From Cyanobacteriota bacterium (GTDB lineage: Bacteria; Cyanobacteriota; Cyanobacteriia; PCC-6307; Cyanobiaceae): a stretch of DNA of 64,000 nucleotides. A model generated the notes under the pieces. That model ran no database searches. It was given only the letters and a program-made list of their open reading frames with translations, and had not been told where the DNA came from. Of this stretch, positions 824-64,000 are shown piece after piece. Both the position numbers and the translations under genes were made by a program. Location of the stretch: contig JAPLIB010000085.1 in assembly GCA_026389335.1 (NCBI GenBank), forward strand, positions 57,977 through 121,976, written 5' to 3'. The number at the start of each line of letters is the position of its first letter. The stretch's first letter is position 1.

Positions 824-2127
824 CCCCAACCCAACGCTCCCCGCTGGCGGAGTCCCTGAGCCTGGCCGGGGGGCTACCTGTGCGCCTGCTGCGGCGCCAG
901 GGGCCTGCCATTCTTTCGGCCCGGCTGGCGATCCGCGGCGGCAGCAGCAGCGATCCCGAGGGCGGCCGCGGGGCCCATCAGTTGCTTGCCGGCCTGATGA
1001 CCCGCGGCTGCGGCGATCTCGATGCCGAGGCCCTGGCCGATCTGGTGGAAGGGGCCGGGGCCGGCCTGCGGGCTGAGGCCCTGGAGGATGCCCTGGTGAT
1101 CGGGCTCAAGTGCGCCGCCGCCGATGCCGCCAGCCTGCTGCCCCTGCTGCTGGCCATGGTGCGCCAACCGCAACTGAGCCCGGACCAGCTGGATCTGGAG
1201 CGCCAGCTGAACCTGCAGACCCTGCAACGCCAGCGGGAAGACCCCTTCCAGCTCGCCCACGACCAGTTGCGCCACAGCCTTTATGGCGCCGGTCCCTATG
1301 GCCACGATCCCCTGGGCGTGGAGCCAGACCTGGAATCCCTCTCAGCAGACGATCTGCAGCCGTTGGTGGCCAACCTGGGCCGTAGTGGGGCCGTGCTGGT
1401 GCTCAGCGGCGAGATCCCCGACGATCTGTCCGAATTGCTGGAAGCGGGCCTGGGGGGGGAACCCTGGCCCACCGTTCTGCAAAGCGCGGCGGCCTGGTCG
1501 ACCCGGCCCGGTGCAGCCCCCGCGACGCGACTGGCGCAGCAGGAGCAGGACACCGAGCAACTGGTGCTGATGCTGGGCAGCGCCACGCTGCCCCTGGGCC
1601 ATCCCGATGCGGTGGCCCTGCGCCTGCTCCAGGCCCATCTGGGCCTGGGCATGTCCTCGCGTCTGTTCGTGACGATGCGGGAGGAGCGCGGCCTTGCCTA
1701 CGACGTCGGTGTGCACCTACCGGCTCGCTGCGGCGCGGCGCCCTTCGTGATGCACCTCTCCACCTCAGCCGATCGGGCCGAGGAAGCCACCGATTGTCTG
1801 CTGCAGGAATGGCAGCGGGTGCGGCAGCAACCGCTGGATCCAACCGAGCTGGCCCTGGCCCTGGCCAAGTATCGCGGCCAGGATGCGATGGGCCGGCAGA
1901 CCTGCTCCCAGCTGGCCGAACGCCTGGCCCTGGTGCTCAGCCATGGTCTGCCGAGCAACCATGTGGAGCGCTGCCTGGAGCAGGCGTTGCAGCTGTCCGC
2001 CGAGGCGATCCGCCAGGCCGCCGACACCTGGCTCGGCCAGCCAGCTCTGAGCTTGGTCGGTCCGGCCCCAGCTCTGGCTGCCGCCACCAGGGCCTGGCAT
2101 GGTCATGCGCTCAGCGGCCTGGGCTGA
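820..2127 (+). CDS. M16 family peptidase-like subunit, zinc motif lost
   Basis: The 435-residue protein has M16 architecture. At the place where HxxEH is expected the sequence is GAHQLLAGLMTRG, so the second zinc ligand and the catalytic Glu are missing. The C-terminal half keeps a good R/Y motif (MREERGLAYDVG), which in M16B heterodimers is supplied by the non-catalytic partner to bind substrate. It starts at the ATG of an ATGA overlap with the preceding M16 gene, so the two are co-translated. Its 3' end overlaps the convergent sipA gene by 17 bp. I read it as the regulatory or substrate-binding half of a heterodimeric peptidase. The natural substrate cannot be told from sequence. Confidence 0.85.
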   Translation: MTPTQRSPLAESLSLAGGLPVRLLRRQGPAILSARLAIRGGSSSDPEGGRGAHQLLAGLMTRGCGDLDAEALADLVEGAGAGLRAEALEDALVIGLKCAAADAASLLPLLLAMVRQPQLSPDQLDLERQLNLQTLQRQREDPFQLAHDQLRHSLYGAGPYGHDPLGVEPDLESLSADDLQPLVANLGRSGAVLVLSGEIPDDLSELLEAGLGGEPWPTVLQSAAAWSTRPGAAPATRLAQQEQDTEQLVLMLGSATLPLGHPDAVALRLLQAHLGLGMSSRLFVTMREERGLAYDVGVHLPARCGAAPFVMHLSTSADRAEEATDCLLQEWQRVRQQPLDPTELALALAKYRGQDAMGRQTCSQLAERLALVLSHGLPSNHVERCLEQALQLSAEAIRQAADTWLGQPALSLVGPAPALAAATRAWHGHALSGLG

Positions 2128-9601: not shown

Positions 9602-10792
9602 TCAGCCGACGGACACCATCGCCGGAGCGCTGGCCTGGAATGCGGGCAGCTCCTCTTCCAGCAGCTTCAGCAGCCGATCGACATTCTCCGGGGTGCTGTT
9701 GTAGCCCATCAGGCCGATGCGCCACACCTTGCCGGCCAGAGCACCAAGGCCGCCGCCGACTTCGATGCCATGGGTATCCAACAGATGGCGGCTGAACGCC
9801 TTGCCATCCACCCCTTCGGGGATGCGCACGGTGGTGAGGGTGGGCAAACGCAGCTCAAGCGGCACATGCAGGGTGAGACCCAACCGCTCCAGACCGGCCC
9901 AGAGCCGTTCGGCATTGCGGCGGTGGCGGCTCCAGGCGTTGTCCAGACCTTCTTCAGCCAACAGACGCAGCGCTTCGCGCATGCCGAAGTTCATGTTCAC
10001 CGGGGCGGTGTGGTGATACACCCTGTCGCTGCCCCAGTACTGGTTGAGCAGGGAGACGTCGAGATACCAATTGGGTACTTTGCCGCTGCGGGCAGCCAGC
10101 TTGGCTTCGGCTCGCGGACCCATGGTGAAGGGGCCGAGGCCGGGGGGGCAGCTGAGACCCTTCTGGCTGCAGCTGTAGGCCAGATCGACCTTCCACTCGT
10201 CCAGTAGCAGCGGCACGGCCCCCAGGGAGGTGACGGTGTCCAGCAACAGCAGGCAGTCGTGTTGGCGGCAGAGCGCGCCAATGCCCTCCATGGGCTGGCA
10301 GACGCCGGTGGAGGTTTCGGCATGGACCATCGCCAGAATCGCCGGCTTGTGGGCGATCAGGGCCTGCTCCAGCTCCGCAAGGTTGAAAGCCTCGCCCCAG
10401 GGGCGCTCGATCGTCACCACCTCGGCCCGGTAACGACCGGCCATGTCCACCAGGCGCAGGCCGAAATATCCCATCACCGCCACCAGCACCTTGTCGCCAG
10501 GTTCGATGGTGTTGGCCAGGGTGGCCTCCATGGCGGCGCTGCCGGTGCCGCTCATCGGAATCGTGAGCCGGTTGTCGGTCTGCCAGGCGTAGCGCAGCAG
10601 TTCCTGCACTTCCCCCATCAGCTCGATGTAGAGGGGATCGAGATGGCCGATGGGGGGCCGGGCGAGAGCCTCAAGCACCGTGGGATGGGCGTTGGAGGGG
10701 CCTGGACCGAGCAGCAGACGTTCGGGGGTGGCGATCGGATCCAGCTGGAGCCGATGGCTGGAATTGACAGGAGGCTGCGCGGAAAGAACCAA
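9602..10792 (-). CDS. Class V aminotransferase, alanine/serine-glyoxylate aminotransferase type
   Basis: The 396-residue PLP enzyme starts at TTG 10792. Family features are LLLGPGPSNAHP, SGTGSAAMEA, HAETSTGV, LLLDTVTSLG and the PLP lysine in CSQKGLSCPPGLGPF. This matches alanine-glyoxylate / serine-glyoxylate aminotransferases, which in cyanobacteria make glycine from photorespiratory glyoxylate. It lies downstream of apcF on the same strand with a 173-bp spacer that contains imperfect short repeats, so it may have its own promoter. The amino-donor preference cannot be read from sequence. Confidence 0.88.
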   Translation of the reverse strand: MVLSAQPPVNSSHRLQLDPIATPERLLLGPGPSNAHPTVLEALARPPIGHLDPLYIELMGEVQELLRYAWQTDNRLTIPMSGTGSAAMEATLANTIEPGDKVLVAVMGYFGLRLVDMAGRYRAEVVTIERPWGEAFNLAELEQALIAHKPAILAMVHAETSTGVCQPMEGIGALCRQHDCLLLLDTVTSLGAVPLLLDEWKVDLAYSCSQKGLSCPPGLGPFTMGPRAEAKLAARSGKVPNWYLDVSLLNQYWGSDRVYHHTAPVNMNFGMREALRLLAEEGLDNAWSRHRRNAERLWAGLERLGLTLHVPLELRLPTLTTVRIPEGVDGKAFSRHLLDTHGIEVGGGLGALAGKVWRIGLMGYNSTPENVDRLLKLLEEELPAFQASAPAMVSVG

Positions 10793-10965
10793 GACCGGAG
10801 CGGCGGCGGACGGGTGCGGTGAGATTAGGGAACGATGGACCCAAGCGCTGAAGCCAGTGGCTTTGCCAGTAGCAAGCAGGCCTTGGCAAGTAGTTCAGGG
10901 GCAAGCAAGCCAGCGGCTGGGGGCTGCCGTTGGCTTGTCGAACAGCGGTGGGTTCGGCGAGGTGT

Positions 10966-11487
10966 TCAGCGAGCGCGGATGTTGCTGCTGGCCAGCCCTC
11001 GCACCAGGTGCTCGAAGGGCACCCGCACCACGGCGGCAGCATCAGCCACACCGGCATCGGCCAGCATCTCGCTCACCACTTCAGCCAGCAGGGCGATGCC
11101 ACGCACCGTCGGACCGGTGGGCACACCCAGACTCTTGTAGGTGTCATCAAGGCCGTTGAGCACCCGTTCGTCGAGGATCGTCAGATCGTCGGCGATCAAG
11201 GCGTAGCTGGCGTAGCGCAGGAAGTAGTCGAGGTCGCGCAGGCAGGCGGCCAGGCGCCGGGTGGTGTAAGCGTTGCCGCCGGGAAGGATCAGCTCGGGAT
11301 CTTCCAACCACAGGCGCTGGGAAGCCTCACGCACGATCGTGGTGGCTTCACGGTTGATCAGCTCCACAGCCGCCAGGCGAATCCTGGACTGGGCGAAGTA
11401 ACCATCGAGGCGATCGATGGCCGCCCGATCGAAGTAACGGCCCAGCTGGTCATAACGGCCGATCAGGCCACTGATGGCATCGCGCAT
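10966..11487 (-). CDS. apcF: Allophycocyanin beta-18 subunit (phycobilisome core)
   Basis: The start is chosen at ATG 11487 (MRDAISG), which matches the usual MRDAV start of ApcF; the ORF track's GTG is 7 codons upstream. The 173-residue globin-like phycobiliprotein has the bilin-binding cysteine in AACLRDLDY (Cys82) and Asn72 in PGGNAYTTRR, the usual site of gamma-N-methylation in beta-type subunits. GVPTGPTVRGI near the C-terminus is typical of ApcF. The protein sits in the core trimer that contacts ApcE and helps pass energy to the photosystems. Its presence shows that the organism builds phycobilisomes. The gene is divergent from glnA across 270 bp. Confidence 0.92.
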   Translation of the reverse strand: MRDAISGLIGRYDQLGRYFDRAAIDRLDGYFAQSRIRLAAVELINREATTIVREASQRLWLEDPELILPGGNAYTTRRLAACLRDLDYFLRYASYALIADDLTILDERVLNGLDDTYKSLGVPTGPTVRGIALLAEVVSEMLADAGVADAAAVVRVPFEHLVRGLASSNIRAR

Positions 11488-51642: not shown

Positions 51643-53400
51643 ATGAGCAGCATGAGCGCGATAAGGCTCGGCCTGATCGTCAGGTACCTGCGCCCTTATC
51701 GCCGCACCCTCGCGCAGGGGGCAGTGGCGCTGCTGGTGGTGAACCTCCTCGGTGTCGCCATCCCCCTGCAGGTTCGCAACATCGTCAACGATCTGCACCA
51801 GGGCTTCACCCTGAATGCGGTGTTGCGCCAAGCGGCGCTGATCGTGCTGATGGCCACCACGATGGGGGTGGTGCGGCTGTGGTCGCGGATGTTGGTGTTC
51901 GGGGTGGGACGCCAGGTGGAGGCGAACCTCAAGCAGCAGATCTTTGATCACGTGCTCACCCAGGAACCGGGTTGGGTGCAGAGCACCGGCAGCGGCGAGG
52001 TGATCAGCCGCGCCACCAGTGATGTGGAAAACGTGCGGCGCCTGCTGGGTTTCGCCGTGCTCAGCCTCACCAACACCGGCCTGGCCTATGCGCTCACCTT
52101 GCCGGCGATGCTGGCGATCGATCCCGGCCTGAGCCTGGCGGCCCTGGGGCTCTATCCGCTGATGTTGATGGTGGTGCGGCTGTTCGGCGGCCGCATGATG
52201 CGCCAGCAACGGCTTCAGCAGGAGGCTCTCGCCGACCTCAGCGATCTGATCCAGGAGGATCTCTCAGGCATCGGCGCGATCAAGATTTACGGCCAGGAGC
52301 GCACCGAACTGGAAGCTTTCCAGGTTCGCAACCGCACCTTTCGTGATGCGGCCCTGGCCCTCGGTCGCACCCGCAGCACCCTGTTCCCGCTGCTGGAGGG
52401 GATCTCTTCGGTCAGCCTGCTGGTGCTGATCGCCTTCGGCAGCGGCCAGATCGAAAGCGGCCGCCTGACGATCGGCGGATTGGTGGCTCTGATTCTCTAC
52501 GTGGAGCGGCTGGTGTTCCCCACGGCGTTGCTGGGTTTCACGCTCAACACCTTCCAGACCGGCCAGGTGAGCCTGGAGCGGGTGGAAGCCCTGCTGAGCC
52601 GCCGCCCCGGGATTGTCTCCCCCAGTGCACCGCAGGCACCGGCCAGCCCCGCCCGCGGCGCGATCGAAGCCCGCGACCTCACCGTTCAGTACGCGGGTGC
52701 CAGCCGGGCGGCCCTGGTGGATCTGAACTTTGCGATCCAGCCCGGCGAACTGGTGGCTGTGGTGGGCCCCGTGGGCTGTGGCAAAACCACCCTGGCCCGG
52801 GCCCTGGGCCGGATGGTGGAGGTCCCCAGGGGCAGCCTGTTTCTCGATGGTGTTGATGTGCGGTCGCTGGCCCTGGCCGATCTGCGCCGCGAGGTGGCGC
52901 TGGTGCCCCAGGAGGGCTTCCTGTTCACCGCCAGCCTGGCCGACAACCTGCGCTATGGCGATCCGGATGCGGCGATGGAGCAGGTGGAGCAAGCGGCCCG
53001 CCAGGCGCGGTTGGAAGGGGATATCAAGGGTTTCCCCGATGGCTACGACACCCTGGTGGGTGAGCGGGGCATCACCCTCAGTGGCGGCCAACGCCAGCGC
53101 ACCGCCCTCGGCCGTGCCCTGCTGCTGCAGGCCCCGCTGCTGGTGCTCGATGACGCCCTGGCCAGCGTCGACAACACGACAGCCGCCGAGATCCTGCGTT
53201 CGATCCGCCAGCAGCGCAATCGCACGGTGCTGATGATCAGCCATCAGCTCTCGGCGGCGGCGGCCTGTGATCGCATCCTGGTGCTGGAGGAGGGCCGGCT
53301 GGTGCAGGAAGGTCCCCATCTGGAGCTGGTGGAACAAACGGGCACCTACCGGCGCCTGTGGGAACGGGAACAGGCCAGTGAACGGCTGCAGGCGGCCTGA
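51643..53400 (+). CDS. ABC-type multidrug/lipid exporter half-transporter
   Basis: The 585-residue protein has six membrane helices then an ATPase domain: Walker A GPVGCGKTT, Q-loop VPQEGFLF, signature LSGGQRQR, Walker B LLVLDDALASVD and switch MISHQ. The residue after the Walker B Asp is Asp rather than Glu, as in MdlA/YheI-type half-transporters that act as one half of a heterodimer. No partner half-transporter is adjacent. The start ATG 51643 is followed by a second Met at codon 4. Confidence 0.9.
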   Translation: MSSMSAIRLGLIVRYLRPYRRTLAQGAVALLVVNLLGVAIPLQVRNIVNDLHQGFTLNAVLRQAALIVLMATTMGVVRLWSRMLVFGVGRQVEANLKQQIFDHVLTQEPGWVQSTGSGEVISRATSDVENVRRLLGFAVLSLTNTGLAYALTLPAMLAIDPGLSLAALGLYPLMLMVVRLFGGRMMRQQRLQQEALADLSDLIQEDLSGIGAIKIYGQERTELEAFQVRNRTFRDAALALGRTRSTLFPLLEGISSVSLLVLIAFGSGQIESGRLTIGGLVALILYVERLVFPTALLGFTLNTFQTGQVSLERVEALLSRRPGIVSPSAPQAPASPARGAIEARDLTVQYAGASRAALVDLNFAIQPGELVAVVGPVGCGKTTLARALGRMVEVPRGSLFLDGVDVRSLALADLRREVALVPQEGFLFTASLADNLRYGDPDAAMEQVEQAARQARLEGDIKGFPDGYDTLVGERGITLSGGQRQRTALGRALLLQAPLLVLDDALASVDNTTAAEILRSIRQQRNRTVLMISHQLSAAAACDRILVLEEGRLVQEGPHLELVEQTGTYRRLWEREQASERLQAA

Positions 53401-53589
53401 AGGGGCCAGGAGCGCAGGCGCAGCCTGGGGCTGCTCAGCGCCCAGGAGGCCGATCCGATCCGTGAGTGTCAGATTGCGCCGTCCCGTCCGGCAACTCCGG
53501 CCCCGGCTCAGGTCCGTGGGGCTGGTTGCACCAGATGGAATCAGATTGGTCTGGATCGCCCATTTTGATTCGGATGCTTCAGGTCGGTT

Positions 53590-53840
53590 CAGATGATCCA
53601 GGTTCGTTTTGATGATCCAGATCGCTTCGGATGGTCCAGATCCAGATCGGATCCATCACAGACACCAGATCGGATCGATCAGACCAGATTCAGACCAGAT
53701 CGGATTGGATTGGATTTGATCAGAGTGGATCGGATTGGATTGGATTGGATCAGATCAGATCAGATCAGATCGCAGAAAATCTGATCAGATCGCGAAAAAT
53801 CAGATCGTGTAGACCGGAGAAGACAGGATCCGATCTCAGC
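53590..53840. repeat. GATC-rich degenerate repeat tract
   Basis: Short variants of GATCAGATC, GGATCGGATT and GGATTGGATT run head to tail, including perfect runs such as GATCAGATCAGATCAGATC. About twenty GATC tetramers occur in ~250 bp. The strand is purine/T-rich and C-poor. Confidence 0.8.
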
Positions 53841-53841
53841 T

Positions 53842-53963
53842 CTTGATTACCCAGAGCGCCTCGCCAATCCCGGATCAGTCCCAGCTAAGGCTTTATTCAT
53901 GTGGCGGGAACACGGCAGACCATGGGCAGCACGCCCCGCCAGGGTGTGAACTGGGTAATCAAG
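53842..53963. repeat. Nested inverted-repeat element
   Basis: A perfect 13-bp inverted repeat CTTGATTACCCAG (53842-53854) / CTGGGTAATCAAG (53951-53963) encloses a second pair TGGCGGG / CCCGCCA. The 122-bp unit could fold into a two-stem RNA or be a small MITE-like element. No flanking target duplication is obvious. Confidence 0.55.
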
Positions 53964-54054
53964 TCTCAGCCTGGTCTGGCTCGTGGGCCGGGCAGGCCGG
54001 GGCAGGGCCCAATCCAGATCGGCAGGGTTGAACGCGAGGAGTTGCTCGCAACGG

Positions 54055-54158
54055 GTTGATCGGTGCGGTTGATCAGTGCGGTTGATCTCAGCCGGTTGAT
54101 CGGAGTGGCTGGATCAGTGCGGCTGGATCAGAGCCAGTTGATCTGAACAGTTGTTGAG
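54055..54158. repeat. 13-14-bp degenerate tandem repeat
   Basis: Seven to eight copies run in register: GTTGATCGGTGCG, GTTGATCAGTGCG, GTTGATCTCAGCCG, GTTGATCGGAGTG, GCTGGATCAGTGCG, GCTGGATCAGAGCCA and GTTGATCTGAACA. The array ends about 55 bp before the next gene. Confidence 0.75.
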
Positions 54159-54213
54159 GCTTGACCCCGAAGCGCAGCTCGGGGGGCTTACGTGAGTCAT
54201 ACCAACCGGTCGC

Positions 54214-54486
54214 ATGACCTCCATGGATCCCAACAGGGCCTTCAACATCCGCTGCACCCTGAGCTTCGGGGACATTTACGGCCAGATCATGATCTGGATG
54301 GGGGTGATCTTCGCCAGCCTCGCCTCCGGCCTGGCCTTGATGGGAGCCAGCAAACCGATCTTTGCCCTGGTGGGCGTGGGCCTGATCCTCGTGCTCTCGT
54401 TGCCCTTTCTGCTGTTCGCCTTCACCACCACCCTGCTGAACCACATCGCCCTGGTGCCTGACGCAAACGAGCGGCGGACTACTTAG
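54214..54486 (+). CDS. Small two-helix membrane protein, conserved hypothetical
   Basis: The 90-residue product starts ATG 54214 (or 54223). A short polar N-terminus (DPNRAFNIRCTLSFGDIYGQ) precedes two membrane helices (IMIWMGVIFASLASGLALMG, FALVGVGLILVLSLPFLLFAFTTTLL). I do not recognise a named family. Good hydrophobic periodicity and position directly upstream of msrA support coding. Confidence 0.65.
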   Translation: MTSMDPNRAFNIRCTLSFGDIYGQIMIWMGVIFASLASGLALMGASKPIFALVGVGLILVLSLPFLLFAFTTTLLNHIALVPDANERRTT

Positions 54487-54511
54487 GCTCGAAGATCTTT
54501 GCGTTCCTGCC

Positions 54512-55240
54512 TTGTTCGGCCTGTTTCCCAAAGCCGCCACGCCTGAAGCCGGGGCGATGCGCGAGCAACTGCAGGGTGTGGCCCACGCCGTGCTCGGCAC
54601 GGAGATCAGCGCAGCCGCAGCCGAGGGTCAGCAGGAGGCCCTGTTCGGCTGCGGCTGCTTCTGGGGGGCAGAGAAAGGGTTCTGGCGTCTGCCCGGGGTG
54701 GTGACCACCGCCGTCGGCTACGCCGGTGGCGCCAGCGAGAACCCCAGCTATGACCAGGTCTGCGGCGGCCGTACGGGCCACGCTGAGGTGGTGCGGGTGG
54801 TCTGGGACAGCCAGCGACTGCATTTCAGCGATCTGTTGAAACTGTTCTGGGAATGTCACGACCCCACCCAGGGCAATCGCCAGGGCAACGATCGCGGCAG
54901 CCAGTACCGCTCGGCGATCTTCGTCGACGATGCGAGCCTGCTGCAGCTGGCCGAGGCGAGTCGCCTCAGCTACGCAGCCGGGCTGGCCGCGAAGGGATTC
55001 CCGGCCATCACCACCGAGATCGCCAGCGACATACCCCTGTTTTATGCCGAGGCGTACCACCAGCAGTACCTGGCCAAACCGGGATGCCGGCCTTACTGTT
55101 CCGCCCAGCCGACTGGAGCCACCCTGGCTGATTTTCCAGGCGCCGATTACCGCTTACCGCCCTCCGTATGGACTGCCTATGACTGGTCCGTGCCCCATTG
55201 CGTTCTGCGCGGCGACAACACGCCGATCGTGCTCCCCTGA
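54512..55240 (+). CDS. msrA: Peptide methionine sulfoxide reductase A
   Basis: The 242-residue product starts at TTG 54512. The active site is GCGCFWGAEKGFW (GCFWG with catalytic Cys), followed by GYAGGASENPSYDQVCGGRTGHAEVVRVVWD and HDPTQGNRQGNDRGSQYRSAIF. The C-terminus has cysteines at PGCRPYCSA, possible resolving residues. An N-terminal ~45-residue extension precedes the domain. It reduces methionine-S-sulfoxide in oxidised proteins. Confidence 0.95.
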   Translation: MFGLFPKAATPEAGAMREQLQGVAHAVLGTEISAAAAEGQQEALFGCGCFWGAEKGFWRLPGVVTTAVGYAGGASENPSYDQVCGGRTGHAEVVRVVWDSQRLHFSDLLKLFWECHDPTQGNRQGNDRGSQYRSAIFVDDASLLQLAEASRLSYAAGLAAKGFPAITTEIASDIPLFYAEAYHQQYLAKPGCRPYCSAQPTGATLADFPGADYRLPPSVWTAYDWSVPHCVLRGDNTPIVLP

Positions 55241-55258
55241 GTGCTAGCGCCGTTTCCC

Positions 55259-55594
55259 ATGGCCCCGATCAGCTCGCGTCTGGCTCTGTGCACCTGCTTG
55301 CTGCTGGCCCCACTGGCCAGCCCTGGGCAGGCGATGCAATCCCCCTGGTGGGAAAACTATGACCAGAAGGAACGCTTCGTCTGCCCCGATCGCGGTGCCT
55401 TGGTGTTGGAACGCAATGAGTCCCAGGCCTCCCTGATCAGTGGCCGCTCCAGCTCAATCCTGTTCCGCGAAGCCAGCGATAACCCCGGCCTCATCTATGG
55501 CAACGGGACCCTGCGGGTGATCCTGCGCGGCGACGAACTCACCCTGGAGCAACTGCCCCAGCGCCTCATCTGCCTGCGTACCGAAGACGTATGA
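55259..55594 (+). CDS. Exported small protein, MliC-like (lysozyme-inhibitor fold) candidate
   Basis: From ATG 55259 the product is 111 residues with a signal peptide (LALCTCLLLAPLASPGQA). The mature part, RFVCPDRGALVLERN, LISGRSSSILFREAS and LRGDELTLEQLPQRLICL, has the beta-rich, two-cysteine pattern of MliC/PliC domains (YxC ... G...LxG...L...C). The match is by eye and moderate. It is followed by overlap of its stop with the next ORF's ATG. Confidence 0.6.
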   Translation: MAPISSRLALCTCLLLAPLASPGQAMQSPWWENYDQKERFVCPDRGALVLERNESQASLISGRSSSILFREASDNPGLIYGNGTLRVILRGDELTLEQLPQRLICLRTEDV

Positions 55595-55755
55595 CTCCCT
55601 TGTCCGATCGTGTTGTGATCGTGGCTTTGATCGCCACGGTGGCCCTGGTGTTTGCCCTGGTGTTCTGGACCGTGAGGCTCCATCCCGCCCCGGATCAACA
55701 GCTCCAGTGGCGCCAGGGTCCCGCCCGCCTCCAGCCAGGCGGATCCACGATCTGA
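55591..55755 (+). CDS. 54-residue single-pass membrane protein
   Basis: This ORF is shorter than the track cutoff. ATG 55591 overlaps the preceding stop (ATGA) and its own stop overlaps the next ATG (TGATG), so it is translationally linked on both sides. It encodes a short polar start, one membrane helix (VVIVALIATVALVFALVFWTV) and a polar tail of ~25 residues. The function is unknown, but the double overlap strongly suggests a real gene. Confidence 0.65.
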   Translation: MTPLSDRVVIVALIATVALVFALVFWTVRLHPAPDQQLQWRQGPARLQPGGSTI

Positions 55756-56144
55756 TGACCAACGCGCTGCCGCCAACCGAGCCGTTGGACCAACCGGAAC
55801 TGCCGGCGGATTCTGATCCGCCGCCGCACCGTCATCCTCCCCGCCAGCTCCATCCCTTGCCGCGGGGGCTGGTGGAGCTCTACGGCCTGCTGGCTGTGCT
55901 GTTCGTGCTTGTACCCGAATGGATGGCCGGCAGCGCCCTGTTCGGCTTCCGCGATGGCCGCGAGGGGTCCAATCTGCCGGCACCCTCGGGCGCCTGGCGG
56001 CGGCTGCCGGAGCTGCGGCTGGCGGCGATGGACACGGCCCAGCTGCGCCGGCTGGCGCAGCAACAACGCTTGGCTGGCTACGGCCGACTGAACCGGGAGC
56101 AACTCACGAGCAAGCTGCTGAAACGGCTGAAACGGCTGGCCTGA
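55755..56144 (+). CDS. Membrane protein with C-terminal SAP/Rho-N-like helical motif
   Basis: From ATG 55755 the product is 129 residues. A Pro/Asp/His-rich N-terminus (~35 residues) precedes one membrane segment (VELYGLLAVLFVLVPEWM). The C-terminal LRLAAMDTAQLRRLAQQQRLAGYGRLNREQLTSKLLKRL resembles the helix-extended-helix SAP/Rho-N motif (LRxLAxxxxLxGYxRxxKxxLI). The role is unknown. It closes the run 54.2-56.1 kb of small coupled genes. Confidence 0.65.
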   Translation: MTNALPPTEPLDQPELPADSDPPPHRHPPRQLHPLPRGLVELYGLLAVLFVLVPEWMAGSALFGFRDGREGSNLPAPSGAWRRLPELRLAAMDTAQLRRLAQQQRLAGYGRLNREQLTSKLLKRLKRLA

Positions 56145-56177
56145 GGGGGCAAGGTCGCTGTGATAACTTCAGGGCGC

Positions 56178-56251
56178 CGGGGCGTAGCGCAGCTTGGTAG
56201 CGCACCACTTTGGGGTAGTGGGGGTCGCAGGTTCAAATCCTGTCGCTCCGA
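56178..56251 (+). tRNA. tRNA-Pro (anticodon GGG)
   Basis: A full cloverleaf can be drawn. The acceptor CGGGGCG pairs with CGCTCCG (one G-T pair), the D arm is GCGC...GCGC, the anticodon stem is CCACT/AGTGG with loop TTGGGGT (anticodon GGG at positions 34-36), and the T arm is GCAGG-TTCAAAT-CCTGT. The discriminator is A and CCA is not encoded. It reads CCC/CCU codons, which are abundant here. Confidence 0.92.
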
Positions 56252-56281
56252 TTCAGTTCCAGCCTTGAACCCCAGTCAGAG

Positions 56282-56309
56282 AGCCGCTTCTTCCCAGAGG
56301 CGGCTTTTC
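56282..56309 (+). terminator. Rho-independent terminator after tRNA-Pro
   Basis: AGCCGCTT and AGGCGGCT form an 8-bp stem (one G-T pair) around CTTCCCAG, followed by TTT-C-T, 30 bp downstream of the tRNA. Confidence 0.75.
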
Positions 56310-56593
56310 TGTTGGGGCGCTTATTGGTCATGCTTGGACCTGAGTTTGCGGCAGCAGCAGTCTGAACGGGGATGACTGCAACGAAGCCGCCAACTCAGCT
56401 CGGCCATCCAGCCCAGGCAGCACGGATTTGTCCCTGCCGTTGAGCAAAGGCTGACCTGGCCAAATCCCTCCCATGGTTGGGGTTGCGTCTGACGGAGTAA
56501 CGGTGCAGCAAGCGACCGGGACAGTAGAAAAACCAGGCGTGGGTTGGGCGGGAGAAAGCAAACCACTAGCCTGGGAGCCACTCTCCAGTTTTG

Positions 56594-58741
56594 ATGCCCC
56601 GCTACGCCTGCGTCGAACAGCACTCCGAGGAAGACTGCGGGGCGGCCTGTCTGGCCACGGTGGCCCGCCAATACGGCAAGCGACTGCCACTTTCAAGAAT
56701 TCGCGAGCTGGTGGGCACCGGCCAGGACGGCACCACTTTGCTGGGTCTGCGGCGGGGAGCCGATGCCCTCGGCTTCCAGGCCCGCGCCGTTCGGGCCAAT
56801 GCCCAACTGCTCGAGCAACTTGAGGCGATCCCCCTGCCGGCCATCTGCCACTGGAATGGCAATCACTGGGTGGTGCTGCATGGGCGCCGTGGACGCCAAT
56901 GGGTGATTGCTGATCCGGCCGTGGGCGTGCGCTTCCTCAGCCGGGAGCAACTGCTCCAAAATTGGACTAACGGCGTGATGCTGTTGCTCCAGCCCGACCA
57001 GGAGCGACTGGAGGAGCAACAGGAGGCGCCTCGCAATTCCTTTGGACGCTTTCTGCAGCAGGTGCTGCCCTATCGGGGGCTGGTGCTTCAGGTGCTGGCC
57101 ATCAACGCTGTGATTGGCCTGCTGGCGCTCACCACGCCGTTGCTGATGCAGTTCCTCACGGATGATGTCTTGGTGAGGAGGGATAGTCAACTGCTCGCCA
57201 GCCTGGGCCTGGGCATGTTGCTGCTCTTTGTCTTTCGGGCCCTGATGGAGCTCATCCAGGGACAACTGGTGAGCCATTTCTCACAGCGCCTGCTGCTGGC
57301 GACTGTGATGCAGTACGGACACAAGCTACTGCGATTGCCGATTGCCTGGTTCGATAGTCACCGTAGCGGCGAGGTGGTGAGCCGTATCGGTGATGTCTCC
57401 CGCATTAATCAGATTGTGGGACAATTGGTGATCAGCCTGCCCAGCTCCCTGTTCATCGCCGTGATTTCGCTGATGGTGATGCTGCAGTACAGCCAGGCGC
57501 TCACCGTCGCCTCACTCCTGGCGTTTGGCGTGGTCAGTGTTGTGGGTCTGATGTATGTGCCGTCCCTGCAGCAGATGACACGCCGCATGATCGTCGAATC
57601 GGCCGACAACCAGGGGTTTTTGGTGGAAACGGTTCGCGGTGCTCGCGTGCTCAAGACGACGGAAGCTCTACCCCAGGCCTGGGAGGAGTACCAGAGCAAT
57701 TTCGGCCGTATTTCCAATCTTTCCTGGCGCATGCAACGGCTGGGACTGTTCAGCTCGACCACTAATAGTCTGCTGTCAAACCTCACCACCCTGGGCTTGC
57801 TTTGGTATGGCAGCAGTTTCGTTATCGCTGGCCAACTGAGCATTGGCCAGCTGCTCGCCTTCAACGGTTTCAGCATCAATGTGCTTGGATTTTTAGAAAC
57901 CTTGATCGGCTTCACCGACGAGTTCATCACTGCTCAGGTGGTGTTTCGTCGGCTCGCCGAGGTGCTGGATGCTGATGTTGAGGATGCCGGTGCGGCCCAG
58001 AAGCCTGCGGTGCTGCTACCCCGCGGTTGCTCGTTGAGCTGCAACCATGTGAGCTTTCACCACCCTGGCAGGGTGGAGTTGATGAACGATCTCTGCCTGA
58101 CGATTCCAGGTGGGCGTTGCACAGCGCTGATCGGAGAATCGGGCTGCGGCAAGAGCACGCTGGTGAAGATGCTTGCCGGCCTCTACTTTCCCCAGGCCGG
58201 CACCATCCATTACGGCCCCTACGGGCTCCGGGATCTGTCGTTGGAATGCCTGCGGCAGCAGGTGGCCTTGGTGCCCCAGGAGGCAGAATTCTTCAATCGC
58301 TCCATCCTGGCTAACTTCCGTTTTGCCTATCCAGGCATGGACTTTGAGGCCGTGGTGGCTGCCTGTCAGCTCGCCATGGCCGATGACTTCATTCGCGACC
58401 TACCGGATGGCTACCAGACCGTGCTCGGAGAATTCGGTGCCAATCTTTCCGGAGGCCAGAGGCAGCGCCTGGCGATCGCCCGCGCTCTGGTGAGTGATCC
58501 AGAGGTGCTGCTGCTGGATGAGTCCACTGCTGCCCTTGATCCGGTGATGGAGCAACGGCTGCTGGATCGACTGCTGGCCCATCGCTCCTCGCGGACCACC
58601 TTGATGGTGAGCCATCGACCCAGCGTGATCATTCGCTGCGACTGGGTGGTGCTACTGCGAAACGGGCGCGTGGCTTTCCAGGGAGTGCCTGGGGAGATGG
58701 GCAAGGTCGCCGATCTCGTTCCTTACCTGCCCGCCGCATGA
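56594..58741 (+). CDS. Peptidase-containing ABC exporter (PCAT; C39 peptidase-membrane-ATPase)
   Basis: Start ATG 56594 gives 715 residues. Residues 1-~135 are a C39 peptidase with an intact active site: Cys15 in EEDCGAAC, His91 in GNHWVVLHG, Asp107 in IADPAVG. Six membrane helices follow (~160-440), then the ATPase: Walker A GESGCGKST (Lys520), LSGGQRQR, VLLLDESTAALD and MVSHRPS. PCATs cut double-glycine leaders and export the cargo, as in bacteriocin and cyanobacterial Nif11/prochlorosin systems. It is coupled to the HlyD gene. No stand-alone precursor peptide is adjacent; the only Gly-Gly leader seen is on the glycosyltransferase at 60959-62887. Confidence 0.93.
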   Translation: MPRYACVEQHSEEDCGAACLATVARQYGKRLPLSRIRELVGTGQDGTTLLGLRRGADALGFQARAVRANAQLLEQLEAIPLPAICHWNGNHWVVLHGRRGRQWVIADPAVGVRFLSREQLLQNWTNGVMLLLQPDQERLEEQQEAPRNSFGRFLQQVLPYRGLVLQVLAINAVIGLLALTTPLLMQFLTDDVLVRRDSQLLASLGLGMLLLFVFRALMELIQGQLVSHFSQRLLLATVMQYGHKLLRLPIAWFDSHRSGEVVSRIGDVSRINQIVGQLVISLPSSLFIAVISLMVMLQYSQALTVASLLAFGVVSVVGLMYVPSLQQMTRRMIVESADNQGFLVETVRGARVLKTTEALPQAWEEYQSNFGRISNLSWRMQRLGLFSSTTNSLLSNLTTLGLLWYGSSFVIAGQLSIGQLLAFNGFSINVLGFLETLIGFTDEFITAQVVFRRLAEVLDADVEDAGAAQKPAVLLPRGCSLSCNHVSFHHPGRVELMNDLCLTIPGGRCTALIGESGCGKSTLVKMLAGLYFPQAGTIHYGPYGLRDLSLECLRQQVALVPQEAEFFNRSILANFRFAYPGMDFEAVVAACQLAMADDFIRDLPDGYQTVLGEFGANLSGGQRQRLAIARALVSDPEVLLLDESTAALDPVMEQRLLDRLLAHRSSRTTLMVSHRPSVIIRCDWVVLLRNGRVAFQGVPGEMGKVADLVPYLPAA

Positions 58742-59961
58742 CCGATCCCGCCCTGCCCATCGACCCTGAATCTGCCGCCGCCAAGCCAGCGCCCCTGGCC
58801 GCTCGCGAGCAGGCAGCGGCGGGACCGCTCGGATTTGCCGCTGGAGATCTCATCCCAATCCAGGAGGCGACTCTGGATGATTTCCTGCCCCCATTGAGCC
58901 CGTTGTTGCGCTGGGCAGGTGTGCTGATGGTCGCCAGCTTCCTGGGCAGCGTGGGGCTGATGGCGATCTGGCCGTACCGCGTTGTGGTTCGGGGCCAGGG
59001 CAGCCTGAGGCCCCAGGGCGAAACCACGGTGATCAATGCCCCCTTCTCCGGCCGGGTGCAACGCATCGCCGTGCGACCGGATCAGATGTTGAGCAGGGGT
59101 CAATTGCTGGCCGAACTTGATCCAATTGATCTGCTGGGCCGCCGCAATCAGCTCAAGGAGAGCCAGGTTGCCCTGACCCGGCAGGCTGAGGCGCTGCGGC
59201 TTGAGGCCGGCTCCAAGGCCAGGGAAACACGTCTGGACGTGGGCAAGAACCAGGCGGCCTTACAACTGGCCGAGTCCGAATACCGCCGCTATCAACAATT
59301 GGTGTCCTCCGGAGCGGCCTCCCGCTCCCAACTCGATGAAAAGCTGGCATCGTTCCAGGTGGCCAGCCGGGAACTGGCCAAGGCCCGGGAGGCTATCGAT
59401 GCCCAAACCATGCGCAGCCGCGCTGAACTGGCCCAGCAGAGCCGGCAACTGGCGGACGCCAGAGCGGAGCTGGGCCAGGTCGGCAGGGAGCTGGGACGCA
59501 CCGCCCTGCGGAGTCCGGTGGCCGGGGTGGTGCTGTCTCTGGGTCTGCGCAATCCACAGCAGATCGTCGCGACAGGCCAGGAACTGATGCGTATCGCCCC
59601 CAGCCATGGGGCCCTGGAAGTCAAGGTGATTGTGCCGGGAGAGAAGATCGACGCCGTGCAAAAGGGTCAGCGAGCTGATCTCCGCATCAGTGCCTGCCCC
59701 TATCCAGACTTCGGCACAATGCGGGCCCAGGTTGTCTCAATTGCACCCGATTCAGTGCGCGCGCCCCAGCCGGCTGGGGACGCGACGACTGCTGGCCGGG
59801 GCTATGAGGTGACGCTGGTGCCGGCACAGCAGCAGATGCGGGTCCGTGGTCGCAGCTGCCAACTGCGACAGGGTATGGATCTCAGCGCGGACATCACCAC
59901 CCGCAAGGAAACGGTGCTGCGGTTCCTGCTGCGCCAGGCCCGGCTCACGGTCGGCCTCTGA
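58738..59961 (+). CDS. HlyD-family membrane fusion protein
   Basis: The 407-residue product begins with the ATG inside the PCAT stop (ATGA). A cytoplasmic N-terminus of ~55 residues and one membrane helix (LLRWAGVLMVASFLGSVGLMAIW) lead to a biotinyl-lipoyl half-motif (INAPFSGRVQRIAVRPDQMLSRGQLLAELDP), a long coiled coil (~135-265) and the second lipoyl half (TALRSPVAGVVLSLGLRNPQQIVATGQEL) with a beta-barrel domain. It links the PCAT to an outer-membrane TolC channel, which is not in the window. Confidence 0.92.
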   Translation: MTDPALPIDPESAAAKPAPLAAREQAAAGPLGFAAGDLIPIQEATLDDFLPPLSPLLRWAGVLMVASFLGSVGLMAIWPYRVVVRGQGSLRPQGETTVINAPFSGRVQRIAVRPDQMLSRGQLLAELDPIDLLGRRNQLKESQVALTRQAEALRLEAGSKARETRLDVGKNQAALQLAESEYRRYQQLVSSGAASRSQLDEKLASFQVASRELAKAREAIDAQTMRSRAELAQQSRQLADARAELGQVGRELGRTALRSPVAGVVLSLGLRNPQQIVATGQELMRIAPSHGALEVKVIVPGEKIDAVQKGQRADLRISACPYPDFGTMRAQVVSIAPDSVRAPQPAGDATTAGRGYEVTLVPAQQQMRVRGRSCQLRQGMDLSADITTRKETVLRFLLRQARLTVGL

Positions 59962-60015
59962 ACCCCAGGAGCGGCAGGCTGGCCTGGAACGCTGAGGTGG
60001 CTCGGAACGGTGCCG

Positions 60016-60155
60016 CAAACTGCTGAGACAAGATGCTGAGACAAACTGCTGAGGCAAACTGCTGAGGCAAAGCCCTGAAGCAAAGCCCTGAAGCAAACCG
60101 GTGAAGTAAAAACAGTGAACTTCAAACAGTGAACTAAAATGGTGAAATCAAACGG
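60016..60155. repeat. Phased 13-14-bp degenerate tandem repeat
   Basis: Seven 13-mers run in register: CAAACTGCTGAGA, CAAGATGCTGAGA, CAAACTGCTGAGG (twice), CAAAGCCCTGAAG (twice) and CAAACCGGTGAAG. About three 14-mers (for example TTCAAACAGTGAAC) follow. The array fills most of the gap between the HlyD and methyltransferase genes. Confidence 0.8.
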
Positions 60156-60197
60156 CAAGCCGGAGTCTGGACACTTAGCTTGGTACAAGGTTGACCG

Positions 60198-60920
60198 ATG
60201 ACAATGATGGATGCATTAACGCGACTTGGCGAACCTTTTCTGGGCGATCTGCAATCGCTCTATGCCAATCAACCCCAGACAGGCCTCGATGGCAAGAGCT
60301 ACGCTATCGATGCGTCAACAAGGATCTCCGTTGAGGAGGGATTATTTCTGCATGACAGCTGTCGCAACGCCGCGATGACGGCCACGTTGGAAGTTGGCAT
60401 GGGCTATGGATTCAGTACCACCTTTTTGCTGGCTGCCCTGGATGCCAATGGTGGCGGTCGCCACATTGCCATAGATCCCTATCAGCACAGCGACTGGGAT
60501 GGCATTGGTGAAAGTCGTATGGCCTCACTGCTGCCGCGCACACAGAATCTGAAACATCACGATTTCACCCTGATTCACGATCGCTCCGACCATGCCGCAA
60601 TTGACCTGGAACGCAGCGGAGCAAGTTTCGATCTACTGTTCATCGATGGCTATCATCGTTTCGATGATGTGCTGATTGATGTTTATCTATTGACTAGATT
60701 ATGCCGCCCCGATGGCCTGATTGTATTGCACGATCTGTGGCTTCCCAGCGTGCAGGCTGTGCAATCATTTCTCTGTCACAATCGCCCTGATCTGCAGCCC
60801 ATCCCGACGAGTTGCACCAATCTGGCGGTCTTCCGTCGCCGTGATACAGACCAACGCAACTGGGATCATTTTGTGCCTTTCCCGATGGCATTCGAGATCG
60901 AGATGGCCAGCGAGAGCTGA
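60198..60920 (+). CDS. Class I SAM-dependent methyltransferase (Methyltransf_24 type)
   Basis: The 240-residue product starts ATG 60198 (a second Met is at codon 3). The SAM-binding motif is LEVGMGYGFSTTFLLAAL; IAIDPYQ follows, then DLLFIDGYHRFDDVLIDVYLLTRLCRPDGLIVLHD, typical of Methyltransf_24 proteins found in glycan and natural-product clusters. The DNA is more AT-rich than the flanking housekeeping genes. It may modify the glycan or cargo handled by the cassette; that is inference. It is convergent with the Nif11-glycosyltransferase gene. Confidence 0.85.
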   Translation: MTMMDALTRLGEPFLGDLQSLYANQPQTGLDGKSYAIDASTRISVEEGLFLHDSCRNAAMTATLEVGMGYGFSTTFLLAALDANGGGRHIAIDPYQHSDWDGIGESRMASLLPRTQNLKHHDFTLIHDRSDHAAIDLERSGASFDLLFIDGYHRFDDVLIDVYLLTRLCRPDGLIVLHDLWLPSVQAVQSFLCHNRPDLQPIPTSCTNLAVFRRRDTDQRNWDHFVPFPMAFEIEMASES

Positions 60921-60958
60921 AGCGACGCGTCCGAGCCGGCTCTCGCCGCCGGGCCGGA

Positions 60959-62887
60959 TCAAGCGGCCGGCAGCCAGTCGATCTGGCCGAGCTTGGCCAA
61001 CCACACCAGGCTCAGCCAGAGCTGGTGGCGGCGGCTTTCGGGAAAACTGGCCAGCAGCTGCTCGACGCTGTGATCAGCCCCATCCGCCAGAAGGTCGAGC
61101 AAGGCGCCATTCTCCTGCCCCGTTCCGCGCAGGCCCTGGAAGAAGTGATCCAAGGCCACCGAAGGTTGATCTGTGCCGGAGGGGGTGGTGAGCACCCGGC
61201 GCACCATCAGCTGGGGATCCAGCGTGGCCGTGGCGAAATGGGCGAAATCATGGAATGGATCGCCACGCAACGGCCGCCGCTGGCGTCTGGCCACCAACGC
61301 ATCTGCCGCAGCCGCACCGTGGCGGCGCCGTTCGCTGAGATGATCAAACAATTCCAGATACTGGGAGACGATCCGGGACCAGTCGAACTGCTCTTGAGCA
61401 CGCCGGCGACCGGCCGTGCCCATGGCAGTCCGCAGACTGGGAGAACGGATCAACTGCAACAGGGCCTCGGTGGTGCGACCGATATGAACGGCCATATGTT
61501 GAGCCACCGAGCCCATATAGAACGGCCAATCCAGAATCTCCAGGGCTTCGAGATTGGCCAGCATTGAACCCTGGGGTACGGGCCCGGGGCCCAGGGTCGG
61601 GATCAGGAAACCATCAATACCATCGCGCACGATCAAGCGGTAACCATCCCAATCGCTGAGCACCACCGGGACCCCTGCCGCCATCGCCTCCAGCGGAGCC
61701 TGGCCGAAGGTTTCCAGAATCGTGTCGGAAAGGAGCAAGAAGATGTCAGCGCCGGCCCAGCACTCCGCCACCAGGTCCGGATCATTGCCATCGAGAATCA
61801 GCACGTTCACATCCGGGGCACAGAGGCGCGCCGCGTCCCGGTAGCGGGTTTCATCGTCTTCGCCAAGCGGAAACCAGCCAGCCATCACGAAGTGCAGACG
61901 AAGGTTCGGACGTTCTGCCGCCGAAACCTGAGCCGCAGCCTGTAAAGCCCGCAGCATCGCCTGCGGAAAGGCCTTGTCAAAACAGGACAGGCGCCCGAGG
62001 TGGAACACCATCACATCGCCGTCCTCGATGGCATGGCTCTGGCGGAACCGGCGACGCGCCTCGGCATCGCCACCTTGGGCAGCCAGCCGCTCGGCATCCA
62101 CGCCCAGGGGAATCATGGGCAGCTGGGGCCGCGTCAACCGCTGCAGGCCGAGGCGTTGGCGCAGATCGTCCTCCCAGTCATCGAGGTTGGCCACCACCGC
62201 TGCGTGCAGGCTCGGGGAGGTGCAGATGAGCGCATCCCACTCCTGCAGCGGAGCCAGCAGGGAGGCGAGCATTTTCTCGCGATGTACGGGAGAGGCAAAG
62301 GCAAAGATCGAACCGACGATGCTGTAGGCCTGTCCATGGCCAGCCTGCTGACGGATCCAGGCCAGATCGCTGAGATAGGGCTGGCCGGAGAGCAACATGC
62401 CAGTCTGCGCGGCAATGCCACTGTTCAGCACTGATCCCACGGTGATGGCACAGCCGCTCGAGCCGTTCGGCAGGAATTCCCGCTGCAGGGCCTGGCTGGA
62501 GAGGGGCTGGTGACCGAGAACATCAATCTGCCGGTAGCCGCCATGGCTGGCCAGGGCCCTGAAGGCCCCAGCATTGGCGATTAGGCGGCCGTAGGGATTT
62601 GGGGGCGGCGCGATGGTGCCGGATGGCAAATAGATCGCCAACCGATCGCGCACCGCCACAGAACGACCGACCCCACCGATGACGGCATCCAGGTCTTGCT
62701 CATCGAAATCGTCAGCTAGCGGCGCGCCGATCCGAAAATCGCGGAGCTCTTCAGCGCTGAGTGCAAAACCGGCGCCATTGGCAATGGCAGCCGCCTGCTC
62801 CGGGTTGGTGGCCTGCTCGAGCGCACTGCGCAATTCTGGTGTGGCCTCCACCGCCACGATGAAATCCAGCAGCGTGTCGGAGGGCAT
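60959..62887 (-). CDS. GT4-like glycosyltransferase with N-terminal Nif11-type leader ending in Gly-Gly
   Basis: Start ATG 62887 gives 642 residues (TTG 62914 is an alternative). Residues 1-72 match a Nif11-type leader: LLDFIVAVEATPELRSALEQA, AAIANGAGFALSAEEL, then DEQDLDAVIGG, with Gly71-Gly72 at the canonical cleavage position. After that come a GT-B glycosyltransferase (LAIYLPSGTIAPPPNPYGR) and a GT4 C-terminal half with MVFHLGRLSCFDKAFP and the E-x7-E motif ETFGQAPLE (Glu392, Glu400). About 150 helical residues follow. Nif11 leaders normally precede small RiPP cores; here the cargo is a whole enzyme. The C39 transporter 2.2 kb away is a plausible processing exporter. Confidence 0.85.
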   Translation of the reverse strand: MPSDTLLDFIVAVEATPELRSALEQATNPEQAAAIANGAGFALSAEELRDFRIGAPLADDFDEQDLDAVIGGVGRSVAVRDRLAIYLPSGTIAPPPNPYGRLIANAGAFRALASHGGYRQIDVLGHQPLSSQALQREFLPNGSSGCAITVGSVLNSGIAAQTGMLLSGQPYLSDLAWIRQQAGHGQAYSIVGSIFAFASPVHREKMLASLLAPLQEWDALICTSPSLHAAVVANLDDWEDDLRQRLGLQRLTRPQLPMIPLGVDAERLAAQGGDAEARRRFRQSHAIEDGDVMVFHLGRLSCFDKAFPQAMLRALQAAAQVSAAERPNLRLHFVMAGWFPLGEDDETRYRDAARLCAPDVNVLILDGNDPDLVAECWAGADIFLLLSDTILETFGQAPLEAMAAGVPVVLSDWDGYRLIVRDGIDGFLIPTLGPGPVPQGSMLANLEALEILDWPFYMGSVAQHMAVHIGRTTEALLQLIRSPSLRTAMGTAGRRRAQEQFDWSRIVSQYLELFDHLSERRRHGAAAADALVARRQRRPLRGDPFHDFAHFATATLDPQLMVRRVLTTPSGTDQPSVALDHFFQGLRGTGQENGALLDLLADGADHSVEQLLASFPESRRHQLWLSLVWLAKLGQIDWLPAA

Positions 62888-62982
62888 CGATGGCTCGGGT
62901 ACGTTTGGAAGCAAGCGTAGGCAGGCGCAGATAAGCCTTCACACCTGCCTTCAGAATGGTGGCTCGCTCACCACCATGTTGG

Positions 62983-63738
62983 ATGTCTCGTGCTCTGGTT
63001 GTGGTCACCTGGTGCGGATCGGGCCCGCCCCTCTCCAGGCTCGAGTTGGATGCGGAGCCCGATTTTGAACTGGTCTGCTTTGATTACAGCGGCACGCAGA
63101 CTGTCAAATGGCTACCGGAAACAGGAGTGCGTCTGCTGACTCGAGCAACCGAATGCAAAGGCCAGATCCTGGATGCCCTGGCAGAGACTCTGGCCTCAAC
63201 AGAGGTTGTCTATGACTATATCAGCGTGATCGACGACGATGTTGAGATCAGCTTATCCGCGATCAATCAAGCCTTGCGCATCGGCCGGCGGCTGGGCTTG
63301 CTCACGTTCAGCCCCTCGCTGACAAAGGATTCCCTAGGCTACCACAGCCACATGTTCCAGCGGGAGGGCTTCCTTTATCGCCGGGTGCTGTGGGTGGAGA
63401 TCATGATGCCGTTCATCGCCATGGATTTATTTATGGCTGCGGCCCCCTACTATTCCCTGGCCATCAGTGCCGCCGGGATTGATTGTTTCATATATCCCGT
63501 ATTGGCGCGGCTGTTATCGCTCGAGGGTGGCCATGCCGTGTTCGACTGTGTCGTAGCCGCCCATCGCCGCGAGGTGACGTCTGGCCAACGGCGCTTCTCG
63601 AACGGCTGTACGGCGATGGAGGAAGCCGGGCAGCTGCGTTGGCTGTGTCAACAGCTACTGGCTGAGCAGAAACCCGAACTCCTGCTGGACCGAGACCTAC
63701 GGCTGCTGCTCGGATTGGCTGGCCACTCCTGCGTATGA
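62983..63738 (+). CDS. DUF707-like putative glycosyltransferase
   Basis: From ATG 62983 (MSRALVVVTW) the product is 251 residues. An Asp triad DDD at 84-86 in YDYISVIDDDVEISLSAINQALRI resembles the metal-binding DxD of GT-A enzymes, and the order DDDVEI, LTFSPSLTKDS, YRRVLWVEIMMPFIAMDLFM and GIDCFIYPVLAR follows the DUF707 pattern. It is divergent from the Nif11-glycosyltransferase gene across 95 bp, suggesting shared control and a joint role in glycan synthesis. Confidence 0.65.
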   Translation: MSRALVVVTWCGSGPPLSRLELDAEPDFELVCFDYSGTQTVKWLPETGVRLLTRATECKGQILDALAETLASTEVVYDYISVIDDDVEISLSAINQALRIGRRLGLLTFSPSLTKDSLGYHSHMFQREGFLYRRVLWVEIMMPFIAMDLFMAAAPYYSLAISAAGIDCFIYPVLARLLSLEGGHAVFDCVVAAHRREVTSGQRRFSNGCTAMEEAGQLRWLCQQLLAEQKPELLLDRDLRLLLGLAGHSCV

Positions 63739-63964
63739 CGGCCGCCAACAGGGACAGACTACAAGAGCTGGAAGAACGGGTCTGAGCTGTCGCCGGCTCA
63801 AGCGCCACAATCAGGCGAAGAACATGGTAAAATCATGCTGTTGATTCATATTTGTCCCGGCGTATCCGTTCAGGGGTCGTGATGCTCGCCGCGAACGGTG
63901 GCCCCATTTGAGCCCTTGACGCCAGCTTGAACCCCGGTTGCATTTCAGGTAGAGATCGCCTGCG

Positions 63965-64000
63965 ATGACCATTCCTCCGGCCGGGATTTCAGAAGCAGAC
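63965..64000 (+). CDS. Possible start of a gene truncated by the window end
   Basis: ATG 63965 opens a frame (MTIPPAGISEAD) that runs off the window, 226 bp after the DUF707-like gene. Too little is visible to identify it or be sure that it is coding. Confidence 0.25.
   Translation, partial: MTIPPAGISEAD

Follow-up and report, generated by a model that had tools for sequence, protein, structure and literature searches.

The window, the 64,000-nucleotide stretch analysed here, comes from the end of a contig of a cyanobacterial genome of the family Cyanobiaceae. It carries near its right edge a reverse-strand gene in which a Nif11-type leader with a double-glycine (GG) site is followed in frame by a full-length GT4 glycosyltransferase (GT). 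The gene and its surroundings comprise the following features:

56178..56251, forward strand: tRNA-Pro(GGG), at a distance of ∼100 bases from the island's left edge (ARAGORN)
56351..63833: island common to sister species (blastn)
56591..58741, forward strand: peptidase-containing ABC exporter, C39 domain with Cys16/His92/Asp108 (PF03412, E 6.2e-37; PF00664; PF00005)
58738..59961, forward strand: HlyD-family periplasmic adaptor, in a 4-base overlap with the exporter gene (PF13437; TIGR01843 below cut-off)
60198..60920, forward strand: SAM methyltransferase, convergent with the GT (PF13578; homologues 48–57% identical beside GT homologues)
60959–62887, reverse strand: Nif11-GT fusion gene, 642 codons in a single open frame that runs without internal stops from the ATG at 62887 to the stop codon at 60959–60961
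60962..62653, reverse strand: GT4 glycosyltransferase domain, residues 79–642, EX7E motif at 392–400 (PF00534; conserved columns; GT-B match)
62654..62671, reverse strand: junction or linker VGRSVA, residues 73–78 (from the sequence; homologues start at about 75–83)
62672..62887, reverse strand: Nif11-type leader, residues 1–72, GG codons at 62672–62677 (PF07862; TIGR03798; prochlorosin-type profile; structural model)
62956..63738, forward strand: protein without family assignment, encoded divergently to the fusion gene (no Pfam match)

A preliminary description of the locus had read residues 1–72 as a Nif11 leader, and profile searches confirmed this reading. Residues 1–48 match PF07862 (Nif11; 35.2 bits, E 1.5e-8), and residues 1–72 cover positions 1–68 of the 68-position TIGR03798 model at 40.0 bits, above its curated cut-off of 32.3 bits (E 3.5e-10). 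A Nif11 profile built without the fusion sequence had the fusion (43.7 bits, E 1.8e-12) as its sole match when all six frames of the window were searched. By profile score the leader is of the prochlorosin type (44.2 bits versus 15.8 for the GEA type discussed below and 13.9 for another Nif11 type), and the source genome contains prochlorosin-type precursors accompanied by a gene of LanM length. The Gly71-Gly72 site is preceded by DLDAVI, and the last 12 leader residues, FDEQDLDAVIGG, have Val at −4, Leu at −7 and Phe at −12, in agreement with the hydrophobic residues required at these leader positions by the C39 protease LahT150 (PMC6363468). Because of this fit, a C39 domain could plausibly recognise the leader, which may thus be bound and cut by a C39 peptidase. 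In an AlphaFold2 model of the fusion protein (mean pLDDT 84.8), the leader forms helices at residues 4–48 (pLDDT ∼85–91), residues 54–77 around the GG site are disordered or of low confidence, and the enzyme is ordered from about residue 82.

A GT4 enzyme of ∼570 residues had been placed directly after the leader; the full-length GT4 is there, but the GT proper starts at about residues 79–82, after the linker VGRSVAVR. Its PF00534 match scores 67.4 bits against a cut-off of 26.4 (E 1.5e-18), and a Foldseek search with the model retrieved GT-B glycosyltransferases, including PimB′ (E 1.4e-14), MshA and others. In comparison with 47 homologues, none of the 51 invariant columns and only one of 88 near-invariant columns are broken in the window GT, and both E392 and E400 of the EX7E motif are invariant. 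The GT-B fold and EX7E are common to the GT4 enzymes PimB′, MshA, BshA and HepE, whereas the window GT has an extra C-terminal part and is the only one with an N-terminal leader. As far as sequence and model allow, the likeliest product is a GT that is active in the cytosol and bears a flexible leader at its N-terminus.

Codon-position coding composition is alike in the leader (0.75/0.44/0.69) and the GT part (0.71/0.48/0.75). A hidden core peptide at the junction was sought and rejected, as neither alternative frame encodes one. This result bears on the possibility that the gene is an assembly artefact merging two separate genes. Precursor and GT genes abut in some relatives (see below), so that a small error could join them, but with no core peptide in the other junction frames a single indel does not account for the fusion, and the gene sits inside a 122-kb contig. 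We regard such an artefact as very improbable and are highly confident that the fusion is genuine and a singleton.

Among 400 Cyanobiaceae genomes, 40 contain a match to the GT at E ≤ 1e-60, counting the window's own. The Nif11 N-terminus is absent from all of the ∼100 further homologues surveyed (24 Cyanobiaceae loci and 80 loci from a GTDB scan), and close homologues begin at about query residues 75–83, where the linker ends. When the open frames of the GT-bearing neighbourhood loci were all searched by profile, none of the Nif11 matches fell in the same frame as the GT. None of the three distant GT homologues on viral contigs has the leader; on plasmids there were only distant GT4 homologues, and the matches listed begin at residue 73 or later. 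Thus, conservation of the leader and its Gly-Gly in orthologues, whose absence the preliminary description had named beforehand as grounds for refutation, was not seen, and the Nif11-GT fusions that it proposed to look for in other genomes did not occur among the homologues surveyed.

Other long Nif11 frames of the genus were also considered as fusions of a GG leader to an enzyme. Among the ∼150 Nif11 matches listed, beyond which further fusions may exist, the seven non-window candidates that were read were rejected: three are Nif11-cupin proteins, two are tandem Nif11 frames and two are small peptides with open upstream frames. The Nif11-cupin proteins occur in three genomes of the genus (loci L025, at G000:C71 65529–65699, L041 and L043), and loci L035 and L042 carry several Nif11-like repeats in tandem, without an obvious GG site.

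The restriction of the fusion to a single genome is one of several observations that favour a neutral accident, in which a leader became attached to the GT through deletion or recombination. The enzyme would then work like those of its relatives, and the leader would be useless, be cut off by any C39 peptidase or be bypassed at GTG codon 77 or 79. Nif11 genes are numerous in the source genome (19 matches), homologues start at the linker end, and the GTG codons V77 (in the linker) and V79 (just after it) are possible starts for a stand-alone GT; in the tree, the window GT has a long terminal branch (0.68 versus a median of 0.33). However, the leader is complete, free of stops and above the curated cut-off, it has kept the GG site and the −4, −7 and −12 residues, and it is no fresh copy of any leader with which it was compared, the best identity being ∼28 of 72 residues at most. 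Such an accident is a serious possibility, nearly as likely as a functional leader.

In the tree, the window GT groups with GTs from a gene cassette of lake MAGs (support 98/93), next to which stand the GTs of genomes G100 and G159 (support for the wider group, 100/98). The cassette consists of a GT and a convergent methyltransferase, mostly accompanied by an esterase, a separate Nif11 peptide with a QPYWWQ-like tail and a protein without Pfam matches, and in some cases by NHLM exporters; such pairs, mostly with the esterase and the peptide, were seen in lake MAG loci L097–L104, L108, L125 and L128. The MAGs that carry it are assigned to Desulfobacteraceae, Geobacter, Acidobacteria, Actinomycetota and others, with binning errors possible, and its recurrence across phyla suggests either horizontal spread or such errors. 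The window itself has the GT of the cassette clade with the methyltransferase adjoining, a convergent pair also present in the closest GT relatives, and its ORF at 62956..63738 shares 38.6% identity with an FkbM fusion protein of the G100 cassette, in the N-terminal half of the latter (tblastn). No NHLM exporter lies beside the window GT up to the contig end, the adjoining exporter being of a different C39 type. The survey of exporter linkage suggested in the preliminary description did find Nif11 peptides and peptide exporters in linkage with GT relatives.

In three cyanobacterial relatives, Nif11-GG precursors abut or closely precede the GT. Those of G159 (L089) and G301 (L095), which have GEA-rich tails, end a few codons from the GT in another frame, and that of G100 (L087) ends ∼0.4 kb upstream of the GT on the same strand. 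The fusion is therefore a short step from the usual layout, although a simple in-place fusion is only a putative origin, since the leader is of the prochlorosin type and differs in this from the precursors adjoining the relatives' GTs. The same three cassettes favour the reading that the leader activates, in cis, a leader-dependent tailoring enzyme, as a natural equivalent of the engineered fusions LctCE and HalCE2; most GT relatives, however, are not adjacent to a GG precursor and the GT has no known leader-binding domain, which makes this reading improbable.

Nif11 precursors with short GEA-rich tails are found at 1590–1940 and 6693–6974 of L087, at ∼10726–11070 (reverse strand) of L089 and at ∼1396–1720 (reverse strand) of L095. 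The tails follow GG or AG, as in GG-EAFMSAGEALIGYSNVGEAGYQGPA and GG-EATASLGEALMGGFGAGEAV, and the genes adjoin those for GT4, methyltransferases, an esterase and NHLM exporters. They possibly represent an undescribed RiPP-like family.

The island at 56351–63833 is 96–98% identical to the corresponding regions of sister species (L211, L210), above the level of the flank (about 89–91%). With respect to the sister species G032, identity is 98.4% over 56351–60459 and 88.7–90.7% in the flank, and G032 lacks 60460–63258 (2.8 kb), which comprises most of the methyltransferase gene, the whole fusion gene and the 5′ part of the ORF at 62956. The last 140 bases of the window (63861–64000) recur unchanged at seven other contigs, and the genome has 14 matches to them. 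As this end repeat is multi-copy, the contig end probably marks a mobile element, and the setting of the fusion gene is seen only in part. Contig C78 was considered as a direct neighbour of the window and rejected, because the 140-base end repeat that it shares is multi-copy and has the same orientation on both contigs. A pattern search of 53400–64000 for other GG-leader peptides gave six matches, none of them leader-like and most antisense to or overlapping genes; a repetitive stretch at 53593–53846 contains short frames rich in RSDQI/RIGLD-like units.

The window exporter and its HlyD partner lie 2–4 kb from the fusion gene. Nif11 genes were found near relatives of this exporter in none of 20 loci, and in four of the loci inspected short non-Nif11 GG peptides lie alongside (L213 6048–6290, L217 1072–1452, L219 5808–6068 and L214 3864–4163), some of them with arginine- or glycine-rich tails. 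Clear matches point to four further C39 exporters in the genome, one of which, on contig C78, is of the NHLM type and is 64–67% identical in two ABC subunits to the exporter of the G100 cassette.

The intact leader, together with the intact C39 triad and the proximity of exporter and adaptor, would fit export of the GT itself, by C39 cleavage after Gly72 and transport from the cytosol, as the preliminary description had envisaged. The cytosolic location of the nucleotide sugars on which GT4 enzymes depend counts against export, as does the modelling of the GT as an ordered GT-B domain. The MccV exporter becomes sharply less efficient when its cargo reaches 116 residues (PMC10231218). For PCAT1, a cavity of 15,000 cubic angstroms with room for one cargo of ∼65 residues has been described (PMC6959990). 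A 570-residue cargo exceeds these limits and departs from the small cargo of C39/PCAT substrates, so that cargo size makes export of the GT distinctly improbable.

Our tentative preference is for a single-lineage fusion of a Nif11-GG leader to a GT4 enzyme in which the leader would recruit the enzyme to a leader-binding partner and would possibly be clipped; this grade concerns function, the reality of the singleton fusion being much surer. A prochlorosin-type leader sits where related cassettes carry, on the GT strand and directly ahead of the GT, a Nif11-GG precursor gene; it lacks core peptide and stop and so forms one protein with the GT. The leader would bring the GT to the C39 domain of either the window exporter or the C78 NHLM exporter, and clipping between Gly72 and Val73 would leave a near-native GT. 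The enzyme would stay in the cytosol throughout, and its export is no part of the proposal. Tethering of this kind is physically possible, since PCAT1 is able to keep another substrate bound through the leader while the cargo remains in the cytosol (PMC6959990). Recruitment is also supported by the model, with its separate helical leader, disordered GG stretch at 54–77 and ordered GT-B domain. It is weakened by the window exporter not being of the NHLM type, with non-Nif11 GG peptides beside its relatives in four of the loci inspected, by the presence of the fusion in one genome only, with the gene absent from sister species G032, and by the location of the NHLM exporter on another contig. Recruitment and clipping are both inferred.

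A docking role of the leader is more doubtful; in this reading the GT would be held on a C39 exporter, glycosylate cargo or peptide at the export site and then be freed by cleavage. The interpretation in the preliminary description thus retains its real Nif11-GG leader, conserved GT4 and adjoining C39 exporter (Cys16/His92/Asp108) and loses conservation of the fusion and export of the enzyme.

Nif11 leaders have been described on small precursors (Haft, 2010; PMC2887384). The TIGR03798/N11P precursors, including prochlorosins (PMC2887384; PMC10783134), resemble the fusion in the full-length leader, the GG site and the acidic and hydrophobic residues before it, but they are small, and the short core peptide characteristic of the family is absent from the window protein, which has 570 residues of GT4 in frame after GG. 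Joining of a precursor leader to a peptide-modifying enzyme is seen in LctCE and HalCE2 (PMC5141572), which are man-made and LanM-type, whereas the window fusion is natural and carries a GT4. RRE-glycosyltransferase fusions (PMC7470986) likewise combine a glycosyltransferase with a leader-related RiPP part, although that part is the leader-binding RRE and not the leader itself. The Nif11-cupin proteins (PMC10783134; also contig C71 of this genome) have a Nif11 domain ahead of another domain, but they are small, have a poorly conserved GG site and carry a cupin in place of a glycosyltransferase. Marine Synechococcus have Nif11/cupin clusters, and glycosyltransferases are common beside their Nif11 genes (PMC10783134). 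In the open-licence papers searched we found no report of a Nif11-GT fusion or of a natural RiPP leader on a full-length tailoring enzyme, and no description of the GT/methyltransferase/esterase/Nif11/NHLM cassette.

Even if the fusion is neutral, it has pointed to this cassette, which recurs in cyanobacteria and in lake MAGs of several phyla. If the leader does recruit the enzyme, the fusion would be a natural counterpart to engineered leader-enzyme fusions, and leaders would be able to direct enzymes as well as substrates.
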